IMG/VR virus record: IMGVR_UViG_3300044998_000877
Coordinates: 1-20,963 of that record
DNA: 20,963 nt
Reading direction: 5' to 3' (one strand)
Source of the DNA: a virus
This document shows, one piece after another, positions 1 through 12,941 of this stretch (the stretch's first letter is position 1; each line of letters starts with the position of its first letter). A model generated the notes under the pieces. It made no database searches, had not been told where the DNA came from, and worked only from the letters and a program-made list of their open reading frames with translations. A program made the position numbers and the translations under genes.

Positions 1-86
1 GCGACTTTCGGGCGGTGCGGCTTCACTGCGTGGCACACGCAGAACGCCGCCGAACCCCGCGCGGCGTCGGGGAACCCGGAAACGAA
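1..86. other. Left flank without a recognisable gene
   Basis: No convincing coding frame, RNA gene or repeat is seen in this GC-rich stretch. It lies beyond the terminator-like hairpin that follows the tRNA/tmRNA-like 3' end. If that end marks an integration junction, this is host flank. Confidence 0.4.
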
Positions 87-114
87 AACGCCCAACCGAT
101 GAGGGTTGGGCGTT
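87..114 (-). terminator. Rho-independent terminator-like hairpin
   Basis: AACGCCCAACC (87-97) pairs perfectly with GGTTGGGCGTT (104-114) around a 6-nt loop, giving an 11-bp stem. On the minus strand the stem is followed by TTTCGTTTCC, a T-rich run. On the plus strand it is followed by GAAAAG, so termination of leftward transcription fits better. It sits just 3' of the CCA-ended tRNA/tmRNA-like sequence on the same strand, as expected for the native terminator of such a gene. Confidence 0.65.
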
Positions 115-120
115 GAAAAG

Positions 121-164
121 TGGTGGCGGAACACGGAACTGAACCCGCGTCCGCTTTCCGAACC
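121..164 (-). ncRNA. tRNA/tmRNA 3'-end-like fragment, possible attachment site
   Basis: Read on the minus strand, this segment contains CGGACGCGGGTTC, then a TTCC and a terminal CCGCCACCA. It resembles the T-arm and acceptor end of tmRNA (ssrA), whose 3' end in many proteobacteria carries the same CGGACGCGGGTTC core and ends in CCACCA. The T-arm is degenerate, because GCGGG and CCGTG form only two good pairs, and no 5' portion is visible to the right. It is therefore not a functional RNA gene as seen. A 3' fragment followed by a terminator is what integration into a tRNA/tmRNA gene leaves at the distal junction. Assignment to tmRNA rather than a tRNA is tentative. Confidence 0.35.
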
Positions 165-213
165 AGATAGCAACGCCTTGGCCTTGAGGGTGTGGATTCG
201 ACGATTTGTCCAC

Positions 214-223
214 TTCGATTACT
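214..223 (+). promoter_or_regulatory. Left arm of 10-bp inverted repeat (candidate operator)
   Basis: TTCGATTACT here is the exact reverse complement of AGTAATCGAA at 287-296. The arm ends on the first base of the putative -35 hexamer, so a protein bound here could block RNA polymerase. A related copy, TTTGATTA (7 of 8 matches to TTCGATTA), lies at 260-267. The likely ligand is the WYL regulator encoded immediately downstream, since BrxR/CapW-type proteins are known to repress their own operons through inverted repeats in the promoter. Confidence 0.5.
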
Positions 224-251
224 TGCTCAGGTGAAAGCGATGGCGCATAAT
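223..251 (+). promoter_or_regulatory. Sigma70-type promoter of the defence operon
   Basis: TTGCTC (223-228) and CATAAT (246-251) are separated by 17 nt, the optimal spacing for a housekeeping promoter. TAATAT at 248-253 is an alternative -10 with 19-nt spacing. It lies about 100 nt upstream of the first gene and is flanked by inverted-repeat arms. No second clear promoter was seen inside the operon, but internal promoters cannot be excluded by eye. Confidence 0.5.
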
Positions 252-286
252 ATCATCGTTTTGATTAGATTGATCGCCTAGCAATG

Positions 287-296
287 AGTAATCGAA
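287..296 (+). promoter_or_regulatory. Right arm of 10-bp inverted repeat (candidate operator)
   Basis: AGTAATCGAA is the perfect inverted partner of 214-223. The two arms bracket the promoter, with 63 nt between them. Such spacing would suit two regulator dimers, or one dimer of dimers looping the promoter, rather than a single compact palindrome. Confidence 0.45.
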
Positions 297-332
297 CCGC
301 CGTTTACGGTCTTATGGCCATCAGATGTGGAT

Positions 333-338
333 GAGGAG
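333..338 (+). promoter_or_regulatory. Ribosome binding site deciding the start of the WYL gene
   Basis: GAGGAG lies 9 nt before ATG 348. An in-frame GTG at 327 would place this motif inside the coding region and has no Shine-Dalgarno of its own, so 348 is the preferred start. Confidence 0.6.
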
Positions 339-347
339 CGCCTGACC

Positions 348-1250
348 ATGCACCCCCAACGTGTCGAGAGTTTGAGCCATGCCCAGCGCGAGCGCTTGGC
401 GTACATCGACTTTCGCCTGTACTTCATGGGTGAAATCGGCCGTCCAGACTTGGCGAGCCGCTTTGGGGTGGCTCCAGCCGGGGCAACGCGCGACTTGGCG
501 CTGTACCGGGAAATCGCACCGCAGAACATTGAGTTCGACGGCAGCAACAAGATCTACCGTATCGGCAAGACGTTCTCCCCGATCTTCGAGCACGCGACGC
601 AGCGTGTCTTGTCGGCGCTTGCTCTTGGGTTTGGCGATGGAGTGAACGTCGAGTCGCAACCGCTGCTGCCCTGCGAGTCGCCCACCGCCCTCAGCAACCC
701 CAGGATGAATGTGTTGGCCCCGATTTGCCGAGCCATCCACGCCAAGCGCCCCATCGCCATCCGTTACCACTCGATGAGCAGCGGAGAGTCCGAGCGGATC
801 ATTGTGCCCTTTGCGCTGGTTGACACCGGCCTGCGCTGGCACGTTCGTGCTTTCGACCGCAAGAGCGGCGAGTTCCGGGACTTCGTCATCACCCGTATCG
901 AAGCGCCGACGCTACTCGACGAGGAACCCAAAGCCAACGAGCGCCCGGATAACGACATCCAGTGGACGCGCATCGTCGAGCTGGATCTGGTGCCGCATCC
1001 GCGCCTCGCCCGCCCCGAGATCATCCAGATGGACTACGGGATGACCGATGGCTCGATCCGGATGCGCGTTCGCGCGGCGGTGGCGGGCTACATGTTGCTA
1101 CGCTGGAGCGTGGACTGCTCGCCTGACCACCATCTCAAGGAAGAACAGTACCGCCTATGGCTCAGCGATCCGCTGGCCTTGTATGGCGTCGAAAACGCAA
1201 AGCTCGCGCCCGGCTACCGCCCACCGGCGACAAGCACAACACGGAAATAG
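348..1250 (+). CDS. WYL-domain transcriptional regulator (BrxR/CapW-like)
   Basis: Likely the DNA-binding regulator of the downstream defence operon. The 300-aa product has an N-terminal winged helix (about residues 10-60, with a helix-turn-helix around ELASRFGV-like sequence and ATRDLALYRE). A WYL ligand-sensing domain follows at about 120-200, with IAIRYHSMSSGE, then LRWHVRAFDRKSG and RDFVITRI as its characteristic strands. A C-terminal dimerisation-type extension follows. The length and three-part layout match BrxR (BREX) and CapW (CBASS) repressors, which are known to sit upstream of phage-defence operons. It is the first gene of the cluster and ends 8 nt before hsdM. An inverted repeat flanks its promoter, which suggests autorepression. 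Another WYL subfamily is possible, and the ligand is unknown. Confidence 0.85.
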   Translation: MHPQRVESLSHAQRERLAYIDFRLYFMGEIGRPDLASRFGVAPAGATRDLALYREIAPQNIEFDGSNKIYRIGKTFSPIFEHATQRVLSALALGFGDGVNVESQPLLPCESPTALSNPRMNVLAPICRAIHAKRPIAIRYHSMSSGESERIIVPFALVDTGLRWHVRAFDRKSGEFRDFVITRIEAPTLLDEEPKANERPDNDIQWTRIVELDLVPHPRLARPEIIQMDYGMTDGSIRMRVRAAVAGYMLLRWSVDCSPDHHLKEEQYRLWLSDPLALYGVENAKLAPGYRPPATSTTRK

Positions 1251-1258
1251 GATCACAA

Positions 1259-3742
1259 ATGGCCATCAAAAAATCTGACCTCTACTCATCGCTCTGGGCA
1301 TCTTGCGATGAACTGCGCGGCGGCATGGATGCCAGCCAATACAAGGACTACGTCCTGTTCATGCTGTTCATCAAGTACGTCTCCGACAAGTATGGTGACT
1401 ACGATGGTTTCGAACCGCCGGTCATTATCCCCAAGGGAGCGAGCTTCAAGGACATGGTCGCCCTCAAGGGCAAGAGCGATATCGGCGACAAGATCAACAC
1501 ACAGGTCATTCAGCCTCTGATCGACGCCAACACCCGCCTTGCACGCAGCGACTTTCCTGATTTCAATGACCCGAACAAGCTTGGTGAGGGTCAGGCGATG
1601 GTGGATCGCCTCAGCAACCTGATCGGCATCTTCCAAAAGCCCGAGTTGGATTTCTCGAAGAACCGAGCCGAGAACGACGACATCTTGGGTGACGCCTACG
1701 AATACCTGATGCGGCACTTTGCCTCGCAGAGTGGCAAGAGCAAAGGCCAGTTCTACACGCCATCCGAGGTCAGTCGCATCATGGCCAAGGTCATAGGCAT
1801 TTCCCCCGCCAATGCAGTGGCCTCGACCACCGCGTATGACCCCACCTGCGGTTCTGGCTCCTTGCTGCTCAAGGTGGCCGCCGAGGCTGGCAAGCACATC
1901 ACGTTGGAAGGGCAGGAAATGGACGTGACCACGGCTGGTCTTGCCCGTATGAACATGATCCTGCACGACTTTCCAACCGCCAACATCCTGCAGGGCAACA
2001 CGCTGGCCGCGCCGAAGTTCAAAGATGGCGAGTCGCTGCGTACCTATGACTACGTCGTCGCCAATCCGCCGTTCTCCGACAAGACCTGGAGCACCGGCCT
2101 GACCCCTGCCAGCGACCCACATCAACGCTTTGCCTGGGGCGAACCGCCAAAAAAGCAAGGTGACTACGCTTACCTGCTGCACGTCATTCGCTCCATGAAG
2201 AGTACCGGCAAAGGCGCCTGCATTCTCCCGCACGGTGTCCTGTTCCGGGGCAATGCCGAGGCCGTCATCCGCGAGAAGCTGGTGCGGTCGGGCATTCTCA
2301 AAGGGATCATCGGCCTGCCAGGTAACCTGTTCTACGGCACGGGCATTCCCGCCTGCATCCTGGTGCTGGACAAGGAAAACGCGGCAGCACGCAAAGGCAT
2401 CTTCATGATCGATGCCTCCAAGGGCTTCATCAAAGACGGTGCCAAGAACCGCCTGCGTGAGCAGGACATTCACAAGATCGTCGATACCTTCACCAAATTG
2501 GTAGAGATACCACGCTACTCGCGCATGGTGCCGCTGACCGAGATCGCAGATCCCAAGAACGACTACAACCTCAACCTGCCACGCTACATCGACAGCACCG
2601 AACCGGAAGACATCCAAGACATCGATGGCCACCTGCGCGGCGGCATTCCAGAGCGTGATCTGGATGCGCTCGGCGACTATTGGAAGGTGATCCCCGGTGT
2701 GCGCCATGCCCTGTTCGAGTCGGCCGGGCGCGCTGGTTACGCACAGTTGAAATTGCCCATCGCCGTGGTGAAGGCCACCATCTTTGCGCATCCTGAGTTC
2801 ACTGCATTCAATCAGGCAGCTACCAAGGTCTTTGCTGATTGGAAGCAAGCCAACACCCCGAAGCTAAAAGCCTTCGCGCAAAACGGCCACCCCAAGCAAC
2901 TGATCGAGGCACTGTCCGAGGATTTGCTTGCACGGTTCAAGCCGACGCCGCTGGTCAATGCCTATGACGTGTACCAACACCTCATGGACTACTGGGCTGA
3001 GACGATGCAAGACGACTGCTACCTGATATCCGATGCAGGCTGGCACGCTGGAGCGCAGCCGCGTGAAGTGGTCAAAATCAAAGACGCGAATGGGAAACTG
3101 GTGTGGCCAAAGGAACCCTTTGACTACACCAAAGGCAAGCGTCGCTTCAAATCCGATCTGATTCCCGCGCCAATTCTGATCGCCCGTTACTTCACCGTTG
3201 AGCGCGACGCCATTGAGCTGCTTACGGCCAAGCTGGCCGATGTCGAGCAACAACTCCAGGAGATGATGGAAGAGAACAGCGGCGAAGAAGGGCTGCTGGC
3301 CGAGGTCATCGAAGGCGAAGGCGACAAGCAGAAGATCACCGCCAAGGCTGTCAAAGCCCGCCTGAAGGAGATCGGCAAAGACCCCGACTATGCCGACGAA
3401 CGCAAGGCGCTGCAGGACTACGCCGCCCTGCTCGACAAGCAAACCGATATCAAAGCTAAGCTGAAGGCGGCGCACGAAGACCTTGAGGCCAAGCTGGACG
3501 CCAAGTACCCCAAGCTGACCGAGGACGAGATCAAGCAGCTGGTGGTGGACGACAAATGGCTGGCGACCTTGGCCGATGCCGTGCAAGGTGAGCTGGACCG
3601 GGTTTCTCATACCCTCACCAGTCGCATCCGCCAGCTTGCGGAGCGCTATGCCACGCCGTTGCCGACGCTGATGAAAGAACTCGAAGCACTCTCAGCCCGG
3701 GTGGATGAGCACCTGAAAAAGATGGGGGCGGTATGGAGTTGA
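1259..3742 (+). CDS. hsdM: Type I restriction-modification DNA methyltransferase subunit HsdM
   Basis: Adenine-N6 methyltransferase subunit that modifies host DNA and, with HsdS and HsdR, forms the restriction complex. The 827-aa protein starts with the HsdM N-terminal helical domain (about 1-140). It then shows FYTP (165-168), the SAM-binding motif DPTCGSGS (194-201) and the catalytic motif NPPF (269-272). The catalytic core ends near DYNLNLPRYI (about 435-444). The C-terminal part of about 380 residues is far longer than in EcoKI or EcoR124 HsdM (about 520-530 aa). It contains charged, coiled-coil-like helices near 645-680 and 735-760, probably for contact with HsdS. ATG 1259 is preferred because AGGA lies 6 nt upstream. 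An upstream in-frame ATG at 1157 would overlap the WYL gene by 94 nt. It overlaps hsdS by 10 nt. Confidence 0.95.
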   Translation: MAIKKSDLYSSLWASCDELRGGMDASQYKDYVLFMLFIKYVSDKYGDYDGFEPPVIIPKGASFKDMVALKGKSDIGDKINTQVIQPLIDANTRLARSDFPDFNDPNKLGEGQAMVDRLSNLIGIFQKPELDFSKNRAENDDILGDAYEYLMRHFASQSGKSKGQFYTPSEVSRIMAKVIGISPANAVASTTAYDPTCGSGSLLLKVAAEAGKHITLEGQEMDVTTAGLARMNMILHDFPTANILQGNTLAAPKFKDGESLRTYDYVVANPPFSDKTWSTGLTPASDPHQRFAWGEPPKKQGDYAYLLHVIRSMKSTGKGACILPHGVLFRGNAEAVIREKLVRSGILKGIIGLPGNLFYGTGIPACILVLDKENAAARKGIFMIDASKGFIKDGAKNRLREQDIHKIVDTFTKLVEIPRYSRMVPLTEIADPKNDYNLNLPRYIDSTEPEDIQDIDGHLRGGIPERDLDALGDYWKVIPGVRHALFESAGRAGYAQLKLPIAVVKATIFAHPEFTAFNQAATKVFADWKQANTPKLKAFAQNGHPKQLIEALSEDLLARFKPTPLVNAYDVYQHLMDYWAETMQDDCYLISDAGWHAGAQPREVVKIKDANGKLVWPKEPFDYTKGKRRFKSDLIPAPILIARYFTVERDAIELLTAKLADVEQQLQEMMEENSGEEGLLAEVIEGEGDKQKITAKAVKARLKEIGKDPDYADERKALQDYAALLDKQTDIKAKLKAAHEDLEAKLDAKYPKLTEDEIKQLVVDDKWLATLADAVQGELDRVSHTLTSRIRQLAERYATPLPTLMKELEALSARVDEHLKKMGAVWS

Positions 3743-4992
3743 AGCCTAGTTACAAAATGACTGAGGTGGGGGGCATCCCGGCCGATTGGCAGCTAACGTG
3801 TCTCGGCGCTCATGGAGAAACATACGGAGGCCTGACCGGTAAAACCAAAAAGGATTTCGGCACTGGCGACGCACAGTACGTTACGTTCATGAACGTCATT
3901 TCTAATGTCGTGATTAATTATGGCGCCTTCGATCGGGTCCATATTGCTACTGCCGAGTCTCAGAATCGGGTGCGCAAGAATGATCTGTTATTCAACGGGT
4001 CGTCTGAAACACCAGAGGAAGTCGCATTTTGTGCAGTTAATCTTGGAGATTTTCCAGATCTCTACTTGAACAGCTTTTGCTTCGGTTATCGGCTGCGTGA
4101 TCGGATCACAATCGACCCGCTGTTTCTTGCATACTTATTCAGGAGTAAAACAGGTCGTGCGCTCGTAAAGGCTCTTGCCCAAGGTTCTACCCGATACAAC
4201 ATCTCCAAGCGCGCACTTCTGGGCGCGCCGCTGGCATTACCTCCCGCCCCCGAACAACGCGCCATCGCGCAAGCACTGAGTGACGTCGATGCATTGCTCG
4301 CCACCCTTGACCAAGTAATTGCCAAGAAGCGTGATCTGAAGCAGGCGGCTATGCAGCAATTGCTTACGGGTGAAACTCGTCTGCCAGGGTTCAGTGGAAA
4401 TTGGGAGGTGAAGCAACTGGGGGATATTGGCCAGTTCTTGAAGGGGCGCGGTGTCAAGAAAGACGAAGCCCAGAGCGGGACGCTCCCCTGCATCCGTTAT
4501 GGCGAGATTTATACGCATCACAACGACTACATCAAGTCTTTTAACTCCTGGATTTCCCCGAAGGTAGCGGCAACGGCGACGAGATTGAAGCAAGGCGATT
4601 TGCTGTTTGCTGGTTCAGGCGAGACCAAGGAGGAAATTGGCAAATGTGTCGCCTTTATTGACGACTGCGAGGCGTACGCGGGTGGGGACACTGTGATTCT
4701 TCGAGCCACTGGCATCAACCCGATGTTCATGGGCTATTACTGCAACACTGCACCAATTGCTACTCAAAAAGCAAGCAAAGGACAGGGTGATGCCGTTGTT
4801 CATATTAGTGCTGCCGCATTATCCAGCATAGCTCTAGCGCTACCATCGCTTACTGAGCAAAACGCCATCGCCGACGTCCTTTCAGATATGGACGCTGAAC
4901 TATCCGCCCTGGAAGCCCGCCGGGACAAAACCCGCAACCTCAAGCAAGCCATGATGCAGGAGTTGCTCACCGGAAAGACGAGGCTGGTATGA
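3733..4992 (+). CDS. hsdS: Type I restriction-modification specificity subunit HsdS
   Basis: DNA-recognition subunit that directs both methylation and cleavage. The 419-aa protein has the classical pseudo-twofold layout. Target recognition domain 1 covers about 15-160, and a conserved helical spacer about 165-218 contains KKRDLKQAAMQQLLTGETRL. Target recognition domain 2 covers about 220-370, and a second spacer about 375-419 contains the parallel NLKQAMMQELLTGKTRL. The two spacers are clear internal repeats. It recognises a bipartite target that cannot be read from sequence. The start overlaps the end of hsdM and the stop overlaps the CD-NTase gene by ATGA. The first recognition domain is AT-richer than hsdM (28 of 60 GC at 3901-3960), consistent with domain swapping. 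No second hsdS or recombinase is nearby. Confidence 0.94.
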   Translation: MELKPSYKMTEVGGIPADWQLTCLGAHGETYGGLTGKTKKDFGTGDAQYVTFMNVISNVVINYGAFDRVHIATAESQNRVRKNDLLFNGSSETPEEVAFCAVNLGDFPDLYLNSFCFGYRLRDRITIDPLFLAYLFRSKTGRALVKALAQGSTRYNISKRALLGAPLALPPAPEQRAIAQALSDVDALLATLDQVIAKKRDLKQAAMQQLLTGETRLPGFSGNWEVKQLGDIGQFLKGRGVKKDEAQSGTLPCIRYGEIYTHHNDYIKSFNSWISPKVAATATRLKQGDLLFAGSGETKEEIGKCVAFIDDCEAYAGGDTVILRATGINPMFMGYYCNTAPIATQKASKGQGDAVVHISAAALSSIALALPSLTEQNAIADVLSDMDAELSALEARRDKTRNLKQAMMQELLTGKTRLV

Positions 4993-6305
4993 GCGTTGCT
5001 GAGATGTTTTCCGACTTTGTCGGCAATCTGGCGATTAGTAACGCGGAGACGATCAGCACGCGCTATGGCGAGTTGACGTCGGCGCTGAACAAGCAGTTTC
5101 GAGACACCGAATCAAAAACCGCGAACACGCTTCAGGTCGGATCGTTTGGCCGGAAAACGGGCATCAATGGCATTTCCGACTTGGACATGCTGTACATCAT
5201 GCCCAAGACCAAATGGGCCGATTACAACAAAGCCGGTGGGCAACTGAGCCTGCTGCAGGATGCAAAAGAGGCGATTCTCAAGCGCTACCCGACCACGAAA
5301 GTAAGGGTAGACCGCTTGGTCGTGACGGTCACCTACACGGACTTCCACGTCGAGGTTCAACCTGTTTTTGAACAGGACGATCAAAGCTATCTGTATCCAG
5401 ACACAAAAAACGGCGGTAGCTGGAAAACCACCAAGCCGAGAGAAGAGATGGCGGCAGTGGCGGATTTGGACACGAAAAAAAACGCCAATCTAAGGCCACT
5501 GTGCAAGATGGCCCGGGCCTGGAAGAACAAGCACGGCGTCGGCATGGGCGGGCTGCTGCTGGATACGCTGGCCTACAACTTTCTTGACTCAACCACGGAT
5601 TTCGACACCAAGAGCTTCCTCTACTACGACCGGATGAGTCGGGATTTCTTCAAATACCTGTCTGAACTGCCAGATCAAACCGAGTACGCTGCGCCAGGCA
5701 GTCGCCAGCGCGTCAAAGTCAAAAAGAAATTTCAGAAAAAGGCCAAAAAAGCCCACAAGCTCTGCGTAGAAGCCATCGAGGCCGAGAACCAGAAGAACGT
5801 CAACGACAAGTGGAAGAAGGTTTATGGGCGACCATTCCCAGCATCGGCGACGGTGGCTCAAGAGGCCGTAGCAAAGAGTTTTGCACAAAGCTGGGATGAC
5901 ACCGAGGAATTTATCGAAGACAAATTTCCAGTTGATATTCGAGAATCTATGCAACTGGATTGCGAGGTCAAACAGAACGGTTTCCGTGAGTTCTTCCTCC
6001 GCGAGATGTTGGCTAGGAGGATTCCTTTGAAGACCAAAAAGAGCTTGCGCTTCGAAATTACAGGTGTTTCGGCGGCAAAGCCGTATGACATCTATTGGAA
6101 GGTCCTAAATCGCGGCGATGCGGCCCGTAAGAGGAATTGCATTAGAGGGCAAATCATCAAAGATGATGGACTGATGCAGCGGACGGAAACTACCAGTTTT
6201 CCAGGCGATCATATCGTTGAGTGTTATTGCGTGAAGGATGGTGTGGTGGTCGCCAAAAACCGGATTCACGTTCCTATTAATGGGGAGCAGAACAATGACG
6301 ACTGA
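4989..6305 (+). CDS. CD-NTase (cGAS/DncV-like nucleotidyltransferase) with AGS-C sensor domain; CBASS synthase
   Basis: Predicted to make a cyclic di- or oligonucleotide second messenger on phage infection. In the 438-aa protein the nucleotidyltransferase signature GSFGRKT begins at residue 51 and is followed by DLD (64-66). A third acidic residue is probably E122 in FHVEVQPVF. These are the metal-binding residues of SMODS-type CD-NTases. The helical middle is lysine-rich (about 235-260). The C-terminal 80 residues or so (about 353-431) match the AGS-C sensor fold, with KPYDIYWKVLNRG, CIRGQI, RTETTSFPGDHIVECY and VVAKNRIHV. No Cap2/Cap3, HORMA or TRIP13 genes are present, so it would be a minimal type I CBASS. 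ATGA overlaps hsdS, and GAGG lies upstream of the start. The nucleotide product cannot be predicted here. Confidence 0.88.
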   Translation: MSVAEMFSDFVGNLAISNAETISTRYGELTSALNKQFRDTESKTANTLQVGSFGRKTGINGISDLDMLYIMPKTKWADYNKAGGQLSLLQDAKEAILKRYPTTKVRVDRLVVTVTYTDFHVEVQPVFEQDDQSYLYPDTKNGGSWKTTKPREEMAAVADLDTKKNANLRPLCKMARAWKNKHGVGMGGLLLDTLAYNFLDSTTDFDTKSFLYYDRMSRDFFKYLSELPDQTEYAAPGSRQRVKVKKKFQKKAKKAHKLCVEAIEAENQKNVNDKWKKVYGRPFPASATVAQEAVAKSFAQSWDDTEEFIEDKFPVDIRESMQLDCEVKQNGFREFFLREMLARRIPLKTKKSLRFEITGVSAAKPYDIYWKVLNRGDAARKRNCIRGQIIKDDGLMQRTETTSFPGDHIVECYCVKDGVVVAKNRIHVPINGEQNNDD

Positions 6306-6873
6306 CCACATCAATGTACTGGAAGGCCAGTTGCGCGAGTGTTACGGGCGAGTGGTCTACTCCCACAAAACACATGAGAAATGCGCGGACATTCTGTTTG
6401 AGCGGCAAGGGCACATAAAGCTAGCCCAGATCATTATCTCCGCCATTGTGACCGGGGGAATCGTTTCAACGTTTTTTGATGCGGGAAAAGTTGGGGCAGC
6501 AATTAGTGCAGTGTTGTCCACAGGGCTCCTTGCTCTGAATGCCTATACGAAAGACTATGACCTCGGTGAAATTGCTCAAAAGCATCGCCAAGCTGGTGCA
6601 GAGCTATGGATTGTCCGAGAAAAGTACCTGTCGCTCTTAACGGATATCCGCACAGGGGATGTTTCGTTGGAGTCTATTCGAGCACGTAGGGATACGCTTC
6701 TCGACGAACTGCACGCAGTTTATGTCGGAGCTCCCAGCACGAACTTTAAGGCCTACAGCAGGGCACAAGAATCACTGAAGAAGCTTGAAGACATGACATT
6801 TTCCGATGAGGAAATTGATGCCTTCCTTCCTAAAGAATTGAAAAGGGTTTCCAAGGGGGGTGGCAATGTCTGA
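6295..6873 (+). CDS. SLATT-domain two-TM protein, predicted CBASS membrane effector
   Basis: Predicted inner-membrane effector that would perturb the membrane when it senses the nucleotide made by the adjacent CD-NTase. The 192-aa protein has a soluble N-terminal helix, two hydrophobic segments at about 41-60 and 65-83, and a long helical cytosolic C-terminal part. The latter contains [21 protein letters not shown] (about 97-117), typical of SLATT domains (SMODS- and SLOG-associating 2TM effectors), probably family 5. ATG 6295 follows GGGGAG by 7 nt and overlaps the CD-NTase gene by 11 nt. An upstream in-frame ATG at 6238 lies inside that gene. The stop overlaps hsdR by 8 nt. GC is lower than in hsdR (30 of 60 at 6241-6300 against 37 of 60 at 8401-8460). 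The ligand-binding mode of SLATT effectors is inferred from family context. Confidence 0.82.
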
Positions 6874-9800
6874 GCAAACCCGATCTGAGCGCAAGACGCA
6901 GAACCGTGTTGCCGCATTGTTTACCGATGCAAGTCGCCCTGACTGCCTAGGGTACGATCACCTCGGTGAGTGGAGTAAACGCGACAACAACCGCTGCATA
7001 GAAGCAGATTTTTTGCGCAGCAACCTCAAGAAGCGCGGGTTTTCCGATGCGCACATTGCTGCTGCGCTGCAAAAGCTCCTGACCGCCGCCGACTCCACCG
7101 GCATCACCCTGTATCAAGCCAATCTGCGCACCTACCAACTGCTGCGCTATGGCGTACCGGTACAGATAGCAGCCGGTCAGGCGCATGAGACCGTACACCT
7201 CATCGATTGGGAAACGCCTGGCAACAACGACTTTGGCCTTGCCGAAGAGGTCACCTTGCGCGGCGGATACGAACGGCGGCCCGATCTGGTCGTGTACATC
7301 AATGGCATCGCGGTCGCCGTCATTGAGTTGAAACGCAGTTCGGTGGAGGTGGCCGACGGTGTTCGTCAGCTCATCACCAACCAGGAAGAGATTTTCAACA
7401 AAGGATTTTTCAGCACGGTGCAGTTGGTGCTTGCGGGAAGCGACTCGCAGGGTTTGCGCTACGGCACTACGGGCACCCCTGAGAAGTTTTTCGTCGAGTG
7501 GAAGGATAAAAGCGCCATCCCATCAGAGCCACTTGCAGAGGGTGCGCTGCTGGACATTCCATTGACGCAGATCTTTGACAAGGTGCGCCTGCTGGATCTG
7601 ATTCGCAACTTCATCATCTTCGATGGCGGGCAAAAGAAGGTGCCTCGCGTCCATCAATACCAGGCCGTGAAAGCGGCCCAGGAGCGGGTGAAGCAGCAGG
7701 AAGGCGGTGTGATCTGGCACACCCAAGGCAGTGGCAAGAGCATTCTGATGGTGCTGCTTGCCAAGTGGCTGCTGGAATATGACCCGCACGCCCGCGTCCT
7801 GGTCATCACCGACCGTGATGAGTTGGACAAGCAGATCGTGGGTGTGATGCGTAATGCAGGCGTGATTGGCGAGGATGCGGCATCGCCGCGCATCACCTCT
7901 CGCGTGGAACTGGTTGAAAAGCTAGGGGCAGCCACGCCCCGCCTGATGTGTGCGCTGATCCACAAGTTCGATACGACCGACCTGAAGGGTGAGCCGCCGA
8001 GGGTGGTGGGCCGTGTTTACGTCTTCGTCGATGAATGTCACCGCACGCAAGGCGGCGACATGAACAAGCAGATGAAGCGATGGCTGGAAAACGCCATCTT
8101 CATCGGTTTCACCGGCACGCCGCTCTTGCGCCGCGACAAGCAGACCACCCGCGAGGTTTTCGGCACCTACATCCACACCTACAAGTTCGATGAAGCGGTG
8201 GCCGACAAGGTGGTGCTTGACCTGAAATACGAAGCGCGTGATGTGCCGCAGCGCCTGACGTCAAAGAAAGCCATCGATGCGTGGTTTGATCAGAAAACCA
8301 AGGGGCTGAACAACTTTCAGCGTTCGGTTCTGCGTAAGCGCTGGGCGACGATGGAAGAGCTGATGAGTGCTGGTGAGCGCAAGCAGCGCATCATCGCCGA
8401 CATCATCCACGACTTCGGCGTGCAGCCGCGTCTGAACAATGACCGGGGCACGGCCATTCTGGTGGCCGCCTCCATCTACGACGCCTGCCACTACTTCCGT
8501 TTGTTTCAGAACACGTCGTTTGGCAAGTACTGCGGAATCATCACCTCCTACGAGCCCAACCACAACGCGATTTCGCGCGAGCCCAAGGACAGCGACGAGC
8601 GCTACAAGTTCGACACCTACACCCAGCATGTATTGAAGAACGGCCAGACGACCAAGCAGTATGAGGATGAAACAAAACGGCGCTTTATCGAGGAGCCTGC
8701 CAATCTGAAGCTGCTCATCGTGGTGAGCAAACTGCTGACCGGGTTCGATGCGCCTTCCTGCACCTACATCTACCTCGACAACGAGCTGCGCGATCACAAC
8801 CTGTTCCAGGCTATCTGTCGCACAAACCGGCTCGACGGCGACGACAAGGACTATGGCCACATCGTCGACTACAAAGAGCTGTTCGAGAAGGTGCAGGACT
8901 CTATCGCCGTTTACACCTCGGATGAGCTGGACATCGACGAAGGTGGCGATGACGGCAACGTAGCCGTGAAAGACTGGCTGAAGGAAGGCAAGGCGCAGCT
9001 TGATGCTGCCCGGGAAGCACTGCGCTACTTGTGTGAGCCGGTGGCCATGCCCCGTGAGATGGAGCAGTACCTCCACTATTTCTGCGGTGATGCCAACGAC
9101 CCAGAAGCTTTGCTGAACACCGAGCCGCTGCGCATCTCGTTCTACAAGTCAGCAGCCGCATTCCTGCGAGCCTATGCGGCAATTGCTCAGAACCTGGAGG
9201 ACGCAGGATATTCAGCGGCAGATATTGCTGCACTCGAAAAGGAGATCGAGTTCTACAGCGACACTCGCACGGCGATCAAGAAGCATTCAGGCGAAGAGTT
9301 GGACATTAAGCCTTATGAGGCGGATATGCGCCACCTCATCAACACCTACATCCAAGCAGACCCAGCTGAAGATTTGGGAAATCTCAGCTCGCTCTCACTG
9401 ACCGAGCTGATCATCGAAACCGGCATTCACGACGCTATTGCCAAGAAGCTCAACCAGAAGGGCAAGCTGTCGAGGAATGCGATTGCTGAAGGCATCATCA
9501 ACAACGTCCGCAAGACGATCATTCGGGATCAACTGACTGATCCGAAGTTTTACGACGAGATCTCCAAACTCCTCGAAGACCTGATCAAGCAAAAGCGCGA
9601 CGACACCGCTGCCTACGAGAAATTCCTCCAGAAGGCCGAAGAGTTGGTGAAAAAGATGGCGGCCAAGAATACGGGCAGCCATCCGCATGTACTCAACGGC
9701 CACCCGGAGGCCATCGCTCTCTTCAACAATCTGGCCAGTATTCCGGCCGCAACTTTCGTTTGTCCGACTGACGACGATGGCAAGGCGACGCTTGCGCTCG

Positions 9801-9958
9801 AACTCGATCAGGCGATGCGAGAGCAGGCCCCGGCAGGCTGGAGAGGGGATGGCATCCGTGAGAAGCAGGTGCTCAATGCGCTGTTTCCCATCATGTCGCG
9901 GGATCGGGTGGCGACGCAGGCTATTTTCGAAATCATCAAGAACCGATCGGGGTACTGA
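6866..9958 (+). CDS. hsdR: Type I restriction endonuclease subunit HsdR
   Basis: ATP-dependent translocase and nuclease of the restriction complex, cutting unmodified foreign DNA. The 1030-aa protein has an N-terminal PD-(D/E)xK nuclease with D140, E154 and K156 (PDLV, then IELK). The superfamily 2 motor has Walker A TQGSGKS (286-292), a DECH box (389-392) and FTGTP soon after. Later helicase motifs include LLTGFDAP and QAICRTNR. A helical C-terminal domain of about 300 residues probably docks on HsdM. The length resembles EcoR124-type HsdR. ATG 6866 is preferred over GTG 6860, because the AAGGGGGG run at 6853-6860 provides a ribosome binding site only for the former. It overlaps the SLATT gene by 8 nt and the next gene by 1 nt. 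All key catalytic residues are present. Confidence 0.95.
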
Positions 9959-10674
9959 TGAACGAGACGATCCAACTGGGCGAGATTTCAATAGCGGTGA
10001 CGAGGAAGGACATCAAGAATGTCCACCTCACCGTTCATCCCCCTGATGGACGTGTGACTCTCGCCGCCCCAACTAACACTCGCCTAGAAGTAGCGCGTGC
10101 CTACGCGATATCCAAATTGGTATGGATTCGTGAGCAACAGAGAAAACTTGATGCCCAAGCGCGGGAAACACCACGCCAGTTCGTTGAGCGCGAGAGCCAC
10201 CACGTTTGGGGGCGGCGCTACCTAATGACGGTGGACTACCAGGATGTAAAGCCTAGTGTTGTCCTCAGCAACAAACGGATCACCCTGATTGTTCGTCCGG
10301 GCAGCAGCGCGGAAAAGCGCGCGGAGGTGATGCATGAGTGGCACAAGTCGTTGCTGCACAAGGTTGTACCGCCACTGATCCAAAAGTGGGAGCAAAAGCT
10401 CAAGGTGAGCGTTTCAGGCTATTTCCTGCAACGGATGAAAACCAAGTGGGGTAGTTGCAATCACGCAGAGGGAAACATTCGCCTCAATACGGAGCTGGTG
10501 AAAAAGCCTAAGGATTTACTGGAGTACGTCGTCGTGCATGAAATGGCTCATTTAATCGAGCCCACGCACAGTGATCGCTTCATCGCCATCCTTGAAGAGC
10601 ATTACCCCAGCTGGCGCGAGGCCCGCGCCGAGCTCAACGAATTGCCGCTGGGTGCAGAGGTTTGGAAGGAGTGA
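9958..10674 (+). CDS. YgjP-like zinc metallopeptidase domain protein (DUF45/COG1451)
   Basis: Predicted cytoplasmic zinc-dependent hydrolase of unknown substrate. The 238-aa protein matches the YgjP/DUF45 family. A beta-rich N-terminal half is followed by KTKWGSC (a conserved family motif), NTELVKKP and HEMAH (residues 194-198), with a further histidine, H204, in PTHSDRF as the probable third zinc ligand. E195 would be the catalytic base. Family members are frequently found next to hsdR in type I restriction loci, but their role there is not established; a part in turnover of HsdR or phage proteins is speculation. The start overlaps the hsdR stop as TGATG-type coupling, and the stop is 1 nt before the next ATG, so it is part of the operon. 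Confidence 0.85.
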   Translation: MNETIQLGEISIAVTRKDIKNVHLTVHPPDGRVTLAAPTNTRLEVARAYAISKLVWIREQQRKLDAQARETPRQFVERESHHVWGRRYLMTVDYQDVKPSVVLSNKRITLIVRPGSSAEKRAEVMHEWHKSLLHKVVPPLIQKWEQKLKVSVSGYFLQRMKTKWGSCNHAEGNIRLNTELVKKPKDLLEYVVVHEMAHLIEPTHSDRFIAILEEHYPSWREARAELNELPLGAEVWKE

Positions 10675-10675
10675 T

Positions 10676-11623
10676 ATGGCACTGAATCTGGCAAAGGTCG
10701 TCATCGGCTATCTGAAAGATCGGCCCGAGCAGAAATTCACTGCACGGCAGATCGCCGAGTGGGTGTTCGCTTCCTACCCGGATGAGTGTCAGGAAAAGCG
10801 TGCCAACAGCCGTGGCGACTACATAAAGTCCGACGCGGATTTGGTGCAGCAGCTCGTCGCAGAAATCAGCTCACAGCGCCCGCGCATGCAAACGAAGCAT
10901 CCAGAACTCAAAACGACTGAAGGACGGCCGCGCAAGTACTACTACTCGGAGCGCTCGGATAGCGCCGAAGTGGCGGCGGCCGAAAGCGAGAGCACGTCAA
11001 CGGCTGCGGATGCAAGTGTTTTGAAGATTGACGAGCACGCTCTGTACCCGCTGCTCTCGCAATACCTGTGGGAGGAGTTTGGCGTTTTCTCCAAGCGGAT
11101 CGACGAGAAGCGTTCGTCGAACAAGCGCGGGCCCAACGGCAACCGCTGGCTGTACCCGGACGTGGTGGGCATGGAGGACTTGGGCAAGGAGTGGCACCGC
11201 GAAGTGCGCGACTGCGTGACGCAGTATTCCGACAAGCGCACCAAGCTGTGGTCGTTCGAGGTCAAGCTGCTGATCAACCGTTCGAACGTACGCGAGTGCT
11301 TCTTTCAGGCCGTGTCGAATTCATCGTGGGCCAATTTCGGCTATCTGGTTGCGGCGGAAATCGGCGGCACCGACACGTTGAAGGAGCTACGGATGCTCTT
11401 CGCGGCACACGGCATCGGCTTCATCAAGCTGGACGTGGACAACCCTGCTGACAGCCAAGTGCTGATTCCGGCGCGTGAGCGCGATGAGATCGATTGGGAC
11501 ATGGCCAATCGGCTGGCCACGGAGAACCGGGATTTTCTTGAGTACGTGAAGCTGGTGAAACAGTTCTACCAGACCGGCGAGGCACGGCTGGCGGACTGGG
11601 ACGTTCCCGAGACGGGGGACTGA
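10676..11623 (+). CDS. HrgA/COG2958-like protein, possible nuclease-related defence accessory
   Basis: A 315-aa protein resembling the COG2958/HrgA family, which is linked to restriction loci. The N-terminal region (about 1-90) looks like a HARE/winged-helix fold, with LNLAKVVIGYLKDRPEQKF and TARQIAEWVF, and ends with GRPRKYYYS. An acidic, Ala/Ser-rich linker (about 92-115) follows. The C-terminal domain (about 120-300) has YPDVVGMEDLG and WSFEVK, with E195 and K197 in an E-x-K strand, followed by RECFFQAVSNSSWA. This is reminiscent of PD-(D/E)xK nuclease-like folds, with the aspartate of YPDVVG as the candidate first acidic residue. Activity is not proven. AAGGAG lies 4 nt before ATG 10676. 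An earlier in-frame ATG at 10571 lies within the metallopeptidase gene. It is the last gene of the operon, ending 4 nt from a convergent phage gene. Confidence 0.72.
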   Translation: MALNLAKVVIGYLKDRPEQKFTARQIAEWVFASYPDECQEKRANSRGDYIKSDADLVQQLVAEISSQRPRMQTKHPELKTTEGRPRKYYYSERSDSAEVAAAESESTSTAADASVLKIDEHALYPLLSQYLWEEFGVFSKRIDEKRSSNKRGPNGNRWLYPDVVGMEDLGKEWHREVRDCVTQYSDKRTKLWSFEVKLLINRSNVRECFFQAVSNSSWANFGYLVAAEIGGTDTLKELRMLFAAHGIGFIKLDVDNPADSQVLIPARERDEIDWDMANRLATENRDFLEYVKLVKQFYQTGEARLADWDVPETGD

Positions 11624-12468: not shown

Positions 12469-12941
12469 GGCCGCACCCGGTCGAACACGCGGCCGAGGAA
12501 CCAGAAGTTCAGCACCCCGGCCCACAATGCCTGATCGGCCTCGGTCCAGGCGTGCAGGATCGCCGCACCCCAATCGGCGCCGCCCGACATCGCCCCGACG
12601 AAGGCCGCTGTCTTCGCCGCGCAGTACAGCGCCATGAACCAGTAGGTGATGACGGGACGAACGCTGCTGGAGAGGGCATCGGCCCAGCGCACGCTCGAAC
12701 GCTGCCCCTGCGCCGCGACGGCCTCTCGCAAGGCATCAATGGCCCCGGTATTCCACGCGGCATCGGCACCCGCGCCGATTTCCGACATCCGCTGCGCGCC
12801 ACGCAGCTTCTCGAACTCCAGCGCCTTGTCCTGCATCGCCAGTTCGTGGCCACGCTCGCCTTTGCGGTCCAGCCACTTCAGGACCTCCGGTGCCAGACGG
12901 AAGGCCCCGCCGAGGAGGCCGCCGAGCAAGGTCTCGATCAT
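12465..12941 (-). CDS. GTA-type three-TM holin
   Basis: Predicted membrane protein that releases endolysin to the periplasm. The 158-aa protein matches the 3-TM holin family described from gene transfer agents. It has an N-terminal amphipathic/hydrophobic stretch (MIETLLGGLLGGAFRLAPEV) and a charged helical middle (about 25-85). SSVRPVITYWFMALYCAAKT is the hallmark motif, followed by hydrophobic segments around AAFVGAM and LWAGVLNFWFLGRVF. ATG 12941 overlaps the preceding stop as ATGA. A longer open frame to 13133 lies over the upstream gene and is not used. It is followed directly by lysozyme. Membrane topology was judged by eye. Confidence 0.82.
   Translation of the reverse strand: MIETLLGGLLGGAFRLAPEVLKWLDRKGERGHELAMQDKALEFEKLRGAQRMSEIGAGADAAWNTGAIDALREAVAAQGQRSSVRWADALSSSVRPVITYWFMALYCAAKTAAFVGAMSGGADWGAAILHAWTEADQALWAGVLNFWFLGRVFDRVRP

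Follow-up and report, generated by a model that had tools for sequence, protein, structure and literature searches.

A conserved palindrome at the -10 hexamer as the probable site of a WYL repressor before a defence operon in a virus record

Introduction

A defence operon in a virus record raises the question of which repeated sequence at its promoter serves its own repressor. The first gene encodes a WYL protein, and the promoter lies between the arms of a perfect 10-bp inverted repeat. An earlier note on this DNA proposed the two arms as the binding site of the WYL protein, while remarking that a gap of 63 nt is unusual for one dimer. It also held that proteins of this class repress defence operons from inverted repeats in promoters, in agreement with the main texts of PMC9122601, PMC9122589 and PMC9122588, which describe relatives of BrxR and CapW as repressors of defence operons that act at promoter palindromes. 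According to the main text of PMC9122601, the WYL repressor family is associated with diverse systems. We ask here whether the arms are the repressor's site and, if they are not, where that site would lie. The window is the whole stretch of DNA that was analysed, a virus record of 20,963 bases.

Materials and methods

The loci compared came from viral contigs and from bacterial genomes (the best 80 of 104 in one search), together with the window; additional bacterial loci were taken from whole-genome searches confined to the groups and numbers asked for. Seventeen loci that were repeats of others, pattern matches or pEFER (L001, L088-L094, L108-L115 and L121) were excluded beforehand. A WYL match was then found in 139 sequences, 135 of which had a usable start and upstream region (L052, L056, L083 and L139 were dropped). 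Ten of the 101 loci with a WYL protein at least 70% identical duplicate another locus exactly around the start, leaving 91 distinct start regions. Arm pairing was compared in 44 loci with the window's spacing, 41 of them distinct. The operator matrix was built from 59 distinct operators of 100 loci, with the window left out. HsdM was searched for over no more than about 4 kb downstream in each locus, and over less in some. Among viral contigs, the operator pattern was found in four, each already recovered by the protein searches, and the left-arm pattern gave six matches, with L088 (from the contig that also carries L006) as the only promoter of this type.

Results

The operon and its first gene

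The operon, with the WYL gene included, spans positions 348 to 11,623 (Table 1). Within this type I restriction operon, the genes for the SMODS/AGS_C cyclase and the SLATT_4 two-transmembrane protein (4989-6870) sit between hsdS and hsdR. The cyclase matches the PADLOC Cyclase model at 2.6e-199 and reaches 114 bits against NCBIfam CBASS_cyclase_b, the cut-off of which is 200. On the 3' side of the operon, a phage lysozyme gene lies on the opposite strand, and the run of minus-strand ORFs around it looks, by eye, like phage tail genes. ARAGORN found no tRNA and no tmRNA in the whole window, and Rfam gave a single match there, under its gathering score.

Table 1. Features of the promoter region and operon, in window positions.
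Feature	Position	Strand	Remarks
Left arm TTCGATTACT	214-223	+	Shares its last base with the start of the -35
-35 hexamer TTGCTC	223-228	+	Consensus of 50 distinct promoters retains TTG
-10 hexamer CATAAT	246-251	+	17 nt after the -35
Operator ATATCATCG-TTT-TGATTAGAT, probable WYL repressor site	250-270		Overlaps the -10 by two bases
Half copy seen in the earlier note	260-267	+	Last two spacer bases and most of the right operator half
Leader ORF, 16 codons, MSNRTAVYGLMAIRCG	284-334	+	ATG 284, TGA 332-334; no SD-like tetramer before it
Right arm AGTAATCGAA	287-296	+	Falls within leader codons 2-5
Shine-Dalgarno GAGGAG of the WYL gene	333-338	+	Overlapped by the leader TGA
WYL repressor gene, BrxR/CapW-like	348-1250	+	ATG 348; in-frame GTG at 327 is a possible alternative start
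Defence operon: hsdM, hsdS, SMODS/AGS_C cyclase, SLATT_4 2TM protein, hsdR, YgjP-like, unknown protein	1259-11623	+	

The earlier note had described the first gene as encoding a BrxR/CapW-like WYL protein, and its matches agree with that description. The protein matches Pfam WYL at 9.7e-14, and its best solved relative is 7qfz (1.2e-88 over query residues 5-290), identified in the main text of PMC9122601 as BrxR of E. fergusonii; CapW and Acinetobacter BrxR are matched as well. Besides a WYL domain and kinship along the protein, it shares with the BrxR/CapW class the position of its gene, which precedes a phage-defence operon (type I restriction, cyclase, SLATT), and, judged by conservation only, a palindromic operator at the promoter.

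Promoter and operator

A generic promoter scan reported no site in the promoter region of the window, because TTGCTC and CATAAT match 3 and 5 of 12 positions and the scan wants 4 per hexamer and 9 in total. The proposed promoter is based on conservation instead: 50 distinct aligned promoters retain TTG (223-225), and GCA..AT ahead of the operator core, at a level of at least 90%. The hexamer at 223-228, which the earlier note had taken for a -35 box touched by one arm, does read TTGCTC.

Abutting the -10 is a conserved palindrome with the core TNATCA-N3-TGATNA. In the 85 of the first 87 loci with enough upstream DNA, the core TNATCANNNTGATNA is exact in 71, carries a single mismatch in 11, the window included, and two mismatches in 3; about 1% of letter-shuffled upstream regions come within one mismatch, compared with 82 of the 85 real loci. 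All 101 loci with WYL identity of at least 70% have at most one mismatch, 91 of them none, and the 91 distinct start regions divide into 82 exact cores and 9 with one mismatch. At 50-60% WYL identity this level is reached by 9 of 29 loci, and below 50% by 1 of 5; the operator is not universal across the WYL family. Scored with the operator matrix, positions 250-270 of the window reach 27.5 bits, where the lowest orthologue has 19.6 and the median is 29.8. No second operator was found in the window, the next best place scoring -1.0 bits (the reverse reading of 250-270 aside). The left half in the window ends in G, where others mostly have A, and the right half TGATTAGAT recurs in L030 and L070, where it forms one half of a perfect palindrome.

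We conclude from this conservation that 250-270 is probably the site of the WYL repressor. Its position, at or just after the -10, resembles that of R-BOX1 of pEFER and of the CapW sites as the main texts of PMC9122601 and PMC9122588 give them. The half copy that had been noticed just after the -10, matching in 7 of 8 bases, reads TTTGATTA. A gap of 63 nt is odd for one dimer, as the earlier note remarked, and the oddity would be explained if the dimer site is the 21-bp palindrome between the arms.

Leader ORF

A short ORF lies between the operator and the WYL gene in most close relatives. The distance from operator core to WYL start is 70-92 nt in 91 of the 101 close loci; in 76 of these 91 an ATG follows the core at +14 to +17, and in 63 of the 76 the ORF has exactly 16 codons. 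Where the spacer is exactly 83 nt (61 loci), the ATG stands at +16 in 56 and is missing in 5, and the stop position holds TGA in 55 and TAA in 4. With duplicates removed, 55 loci remain, 51 of which have the ATG, 48 the exact 16-codon ORF, 49 the stop TGA and 4 the stop TAA. Cluster-weighted conservation is 0.92, 0.88 and 0.92 in the three columns of the ATG, against a median of 0.66, and the 16-codon frame is kept in 20 of 26 clusters. An SD-like tetramer precedes the leader ATG in 2 of 56 loci and the WYL gene in 56 of the 61 with the 83-nt spacer. In L008 and L013 the leader stops after 13 codons, three early, and the later TGA at the Shine-Dalgarno remains.

Between start and stop, the leader codons show no synonymous excess (91 of 301 changes, 0.302 against a null of 0.288; 618 of 2,000 simulations reach the observed value). 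Selection against stops in the leader frame was not seen, with stop gains on 5 edges against a neutral-simulation mean of 5.5, and no conserved RNA structure of the leader region emerged from 32 sequences of the 44. Because synonymous changes are not in excess and stop gains are not rarer, the case for a leader reading frame comes from its start and its stop. A peptide-sensing, stalling attenuator was considered and rejected, given the lack of a synonymous excess and of a consensus structure. It may thus be translation of the leader, and not its peptide, that matters. The leader stop overlaps the Shine-Dalgarno of the WYL gene, which makes translational coupling of the two likely, and such coupling is the simplest function that we would propose for the leader.

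The inverted repeat

The inverted-repeat search bears out the exact 10-bp arms at 214-223 and 287-296, 63 nt apart. The earlier note had called such a match unlikely by chance, and for a single promoter this holds: 10 is the longest perfect inverted repeat in 201-340, and only 2 of 400 dinucleotide shuffles attain at least that length. It does not extend to a window of this size, where three perfect repeats reach 10 bp or more with arms set 3-100 nt apart, so that the look-elsewhere value is modest. One of the three is a hairpin at 87-114 that the terminator scan also reported.

The check proposed in the earlier note, conservation of the arms in orthologous promoters, was run on the 44 loci, and the arms are not kept as a pair. 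At the same offsets, 5 loci pair at 8 or more of the 10 positions where swapped partners average 3.0 such loci, a count that 633 of 5,000 partner swaps reach and that is not significant. Mean arm pairing is 3.64 against 3.71 for swapped partners, with 3,479 of 5,000 swaps reaching 3.64. Pairing is perfect in the window, L006 and L009 and stands at 9 of 10 in L043 and L038; two loci have 7 pairs and the others at most 6. The left arm occurs without the right in L017 and L025, and the right without the left in L015, L016, L020, L021 and L023. The arms were accordingly rejected as a conserved pair over these 44 loci (41 distinct), and their complementarity is, as far as the comparison goes, a feature of a small clade. 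One double difference distinguishes the perfect pairs, A/T in the window against G/C on both arms in L006 and L009; on the right arm it is synonymous in the leader (AGT vs AGC). When the arms are slid by 1-4 columns, mean pairing is 1.80-3.52, compared with 3.64 in register. Incidental pairing alone does not explain the joint arm difference in the perfect clade together with the best register at zero slide.

What, then, are the arms? The WYL protein could bind both of them, perhaps by looping, either in addition to the central half copy or in its place. The left arm holds CGATTACTT, a half-site of 4.5 bits that only 40 of 41,910 places in the window exceed; the left-arm zone of L043 scores 9.2; and BrxR can bind a single repeat, according to the main text of PMC9122601. 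The right arm, however, scores -0.9 bits, and a much stronger site lies between the arms, with operator halves at 11.3 and 12.2 bits, far above either arm; as main WYL half-sites the arms were therefore rejected. L006 and L009, for all their perfect arms, have best half-sites of -0.8 and -3.4 in the left zone and of -6.6 in both right zones. With these scores below zero, the change that preserved pairing did not preserve resemblance to the operator. Taken with the mere 5 of 44 loci that pair in at least 8 positions, this makes two-arm binding very improbable. The conserved palindrome at 250-270 and the unconserved arm pair support the idea of a WYL repressor at this promoter and not the arms as its site, the assignment made in the earlier note. 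A weightier alternative, to which we give somewhat less than even chances, is that the arms serve a different regulator, or that they have no function and are a relic or paired by chance. The presence of three perfect repeats in the window, the occurrence of either arm on its own and the non-significant count of well-paired loci are what it would lead one to expect, but three diverged loci pair perfectly, and one position is filled by either of two base pairs.

The arms could instead act in RNA. A read-through transcript would pair them and hide the leader start, so that transcription from outside could not switch on the repressor operon; only read-through RNA would hold both arms, because the operon's own transcript would start between them. 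Fold-back protection of transposase genes is a comparable guard against read-through, although the term was not found in the eight papers that one literature search returned. In the window, the mean unpaired probability around the leader ATG is 0.15 in the read-through RNA, 0.37 in its own transcript and 0.45 with a shuffled upstream (0 of 60 shuffles as low), and L006 and L009 pair perfectly through a different base pair. Promoter and leader regions of 41 cluster representatives, without the window's cluster, show an excess of pairing (perfect stretches of at least 7: 10 against 5.3 and 5.5 expected); the excess has p 0.005-0.03 over three measures and two nulls, shuffles and swaps (0 to 0.017 with the window included), and none of three control region pairs falls under 0.05 (lowest 0.065). 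Yet a Wilcoxon test of leader-start accessibility in 42 clusters gives no significant effect (p 0.21), with 6 clusters ranked at or below 0.05, the window among them, and 4 at or above 0.95. The WYL Shine-Dalgarno region is more open in the window's read-through RNA (0.55) than in its own transcript (0.38) or with a shuffled upstream (0.35), which is the wrong direction unless translation of WYL depends on the leader. Over 26 clusters with the window included, the swapped-partner test gives p 0.15 for stretches of at least 7 and 0.06 for at least 8, and the pairing sits at different places in different lineages. These tests were devised after the data had been seen, and an upstream promoter and read-through transcription are presumed. 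We regard a role of the arms in RNA as unlikely.

Discussion

Comparison of related loci brings out the operator, the promoter and the start and stop of the leader, and it shows that the two arms are not conserved together. From these we infer a self-repressing defence-operon promoter, with a WYL dimer on 250-270, a coupled 16-codon leader and arms that are not the repressor's site, and we think that this reading is probably correct. The promoter TTGCTC-17-CATAAT would drive the operon, and a WYL dimer on the 21-bp palindrome overlapping the -10 would block RNA polymerase. The transcript would start near 258 and carry the leader ORF, which has no Shine-Dalgarno of its own, and translation of leader and repressor would likely be coupled where the leader stop overlaps the repressor's Shine-Dalgarno. 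The repressor would not bind at the arms, the left of which touches the -35 while the right is leader coding sequence.

A bolder extension, which we consider quite unlikely, concerns how such an operon is switched on. If ribosomes arrive at the repressor start only by translating a leader that has no Shine-Dalgarno, phage shut-off of host translation would lower the repressor and free the defence operon; in the window's clade, read-through RNA folded by the arms over the start of the leader would be a further safeguard.

The promoter and repressor seem to keep varied company. HsdM like that of the window (92-94%) follows the WYL gene only in L008, L011, L030 and L036 of 86 loci searched over about 4 kb at most, and the remaining loci have HsdM matches at 26-35% or none. 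With HsdM of this kind in only 4 of the 86, repressor, promoter and leader seem to move as a unit between defence operons, which agrees with the association of the family with diverse systems (PMC9122601, main text). We propose the operator sequence for BrxR-like repressors of a large group, which share a promoter before very different defence genes, and this bears on how such operons stay off and turn on during infection.

Several observations concern the DNA upstream of the promoter. Window positions 69-165 resemble, on the minus strand, a tmRNA 3' end with its terminator; 85 window bases align at 72% with the ssrA region of Tahibacter. In the Tahibacter locus (L162), the operon is flanked by a tmRNA remnant of this kind on one side and, some 10 kb away, by an intact ssrA on the other, so that it seems to occupy the margin of an island at ssrA. 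An exact attachment repeat at ssrA was expected in this locus but was not found; 19 nt match the remnant at 89%. In L011, L036, L037, L041, L045, L058 and similar loci, stretches like the T-arm of tRNA or tmRNA adjoin in both orientations, by eye, about 80-200 nt before the WYL start, as if they were joined integration ends. A DNA similarity search with 166-350 against plasmids returned four records, covering only query bases 2-47, and the same search against E. coli genomes returned none. In the four plasmids (H44-H47), which are mobilizable, a 46-base stretch is 89% like window 167-212, with no gene there in an incomplete gene table; it may be an island end.

Among known systems, BrxR of pEFER is closest: it is the nearest solved relative, a defence-island repressor, and has a dimer site just after the -10 (PMC9122601, main text). 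In the pEFER record (L094 210-350) brxR is annotated from 12882, and the main text of PMC9122601 gives the start codon at 12,921. R-BOX1 consists there of two 11-bp repeats 5 bp apart, GAAACCTACTG / CAGTAGGTTGC, whereas the window has ATNTNATCA-N3-TGATNANAT; with another half-site and another spacer, 250-270 falls outside the pEFER R-BOX class (R-BOX1 sequence taken from the pEFER record). CapW of CBASS is likewise a WYL repressor with palindromes, of 19-24 bp, that overlap the -10 (PMC9122588, main text), and here too a CD-NTase-type cyclase stands in the operon; unlike the CapW systems, ours is a type I restriction operon with cyclase and SLATT_4, and its cyclase lies below the NCBIfam CBASS cut-off. 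BrxR of Acinetobacter NEB394 is a WYL repressor with a promoter pseudo-palindrome of 10-bp half-sites, and we count as a further likeness that effects of gene and protein are separable (PMC9122589, main text). Its site differs in overlapping the -35, with half-sites 5 nt apart, and its transcript starts 23 bp before the gene, according to the same text; that distance leaves no room for such a leader. RptR, as the available text of PMC12255303 describes it, is also a first-gene repressor of type I restriction operons with sites overlapping the -10, but it is a small helical protein with 6-bp TAGCTA sites and is set apart there from WYL repressors.

By word search, the main texts of PMC9122589 and PMC9122588 contain no wording for a leader, and that of PMC9122601 none for a leader or small ORF; literature searches, with subscription papers mostly outside their coverage, returned nothing on a leader ORF in front of a WYL repressor. 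By wording, then, the main texts of these three papers on WYL repressors do not mention an ORF of this kind, with its conserved start and stop. The conserved operator, together with the start and stop of this leader, adds to the BrxR/CapW type of control.
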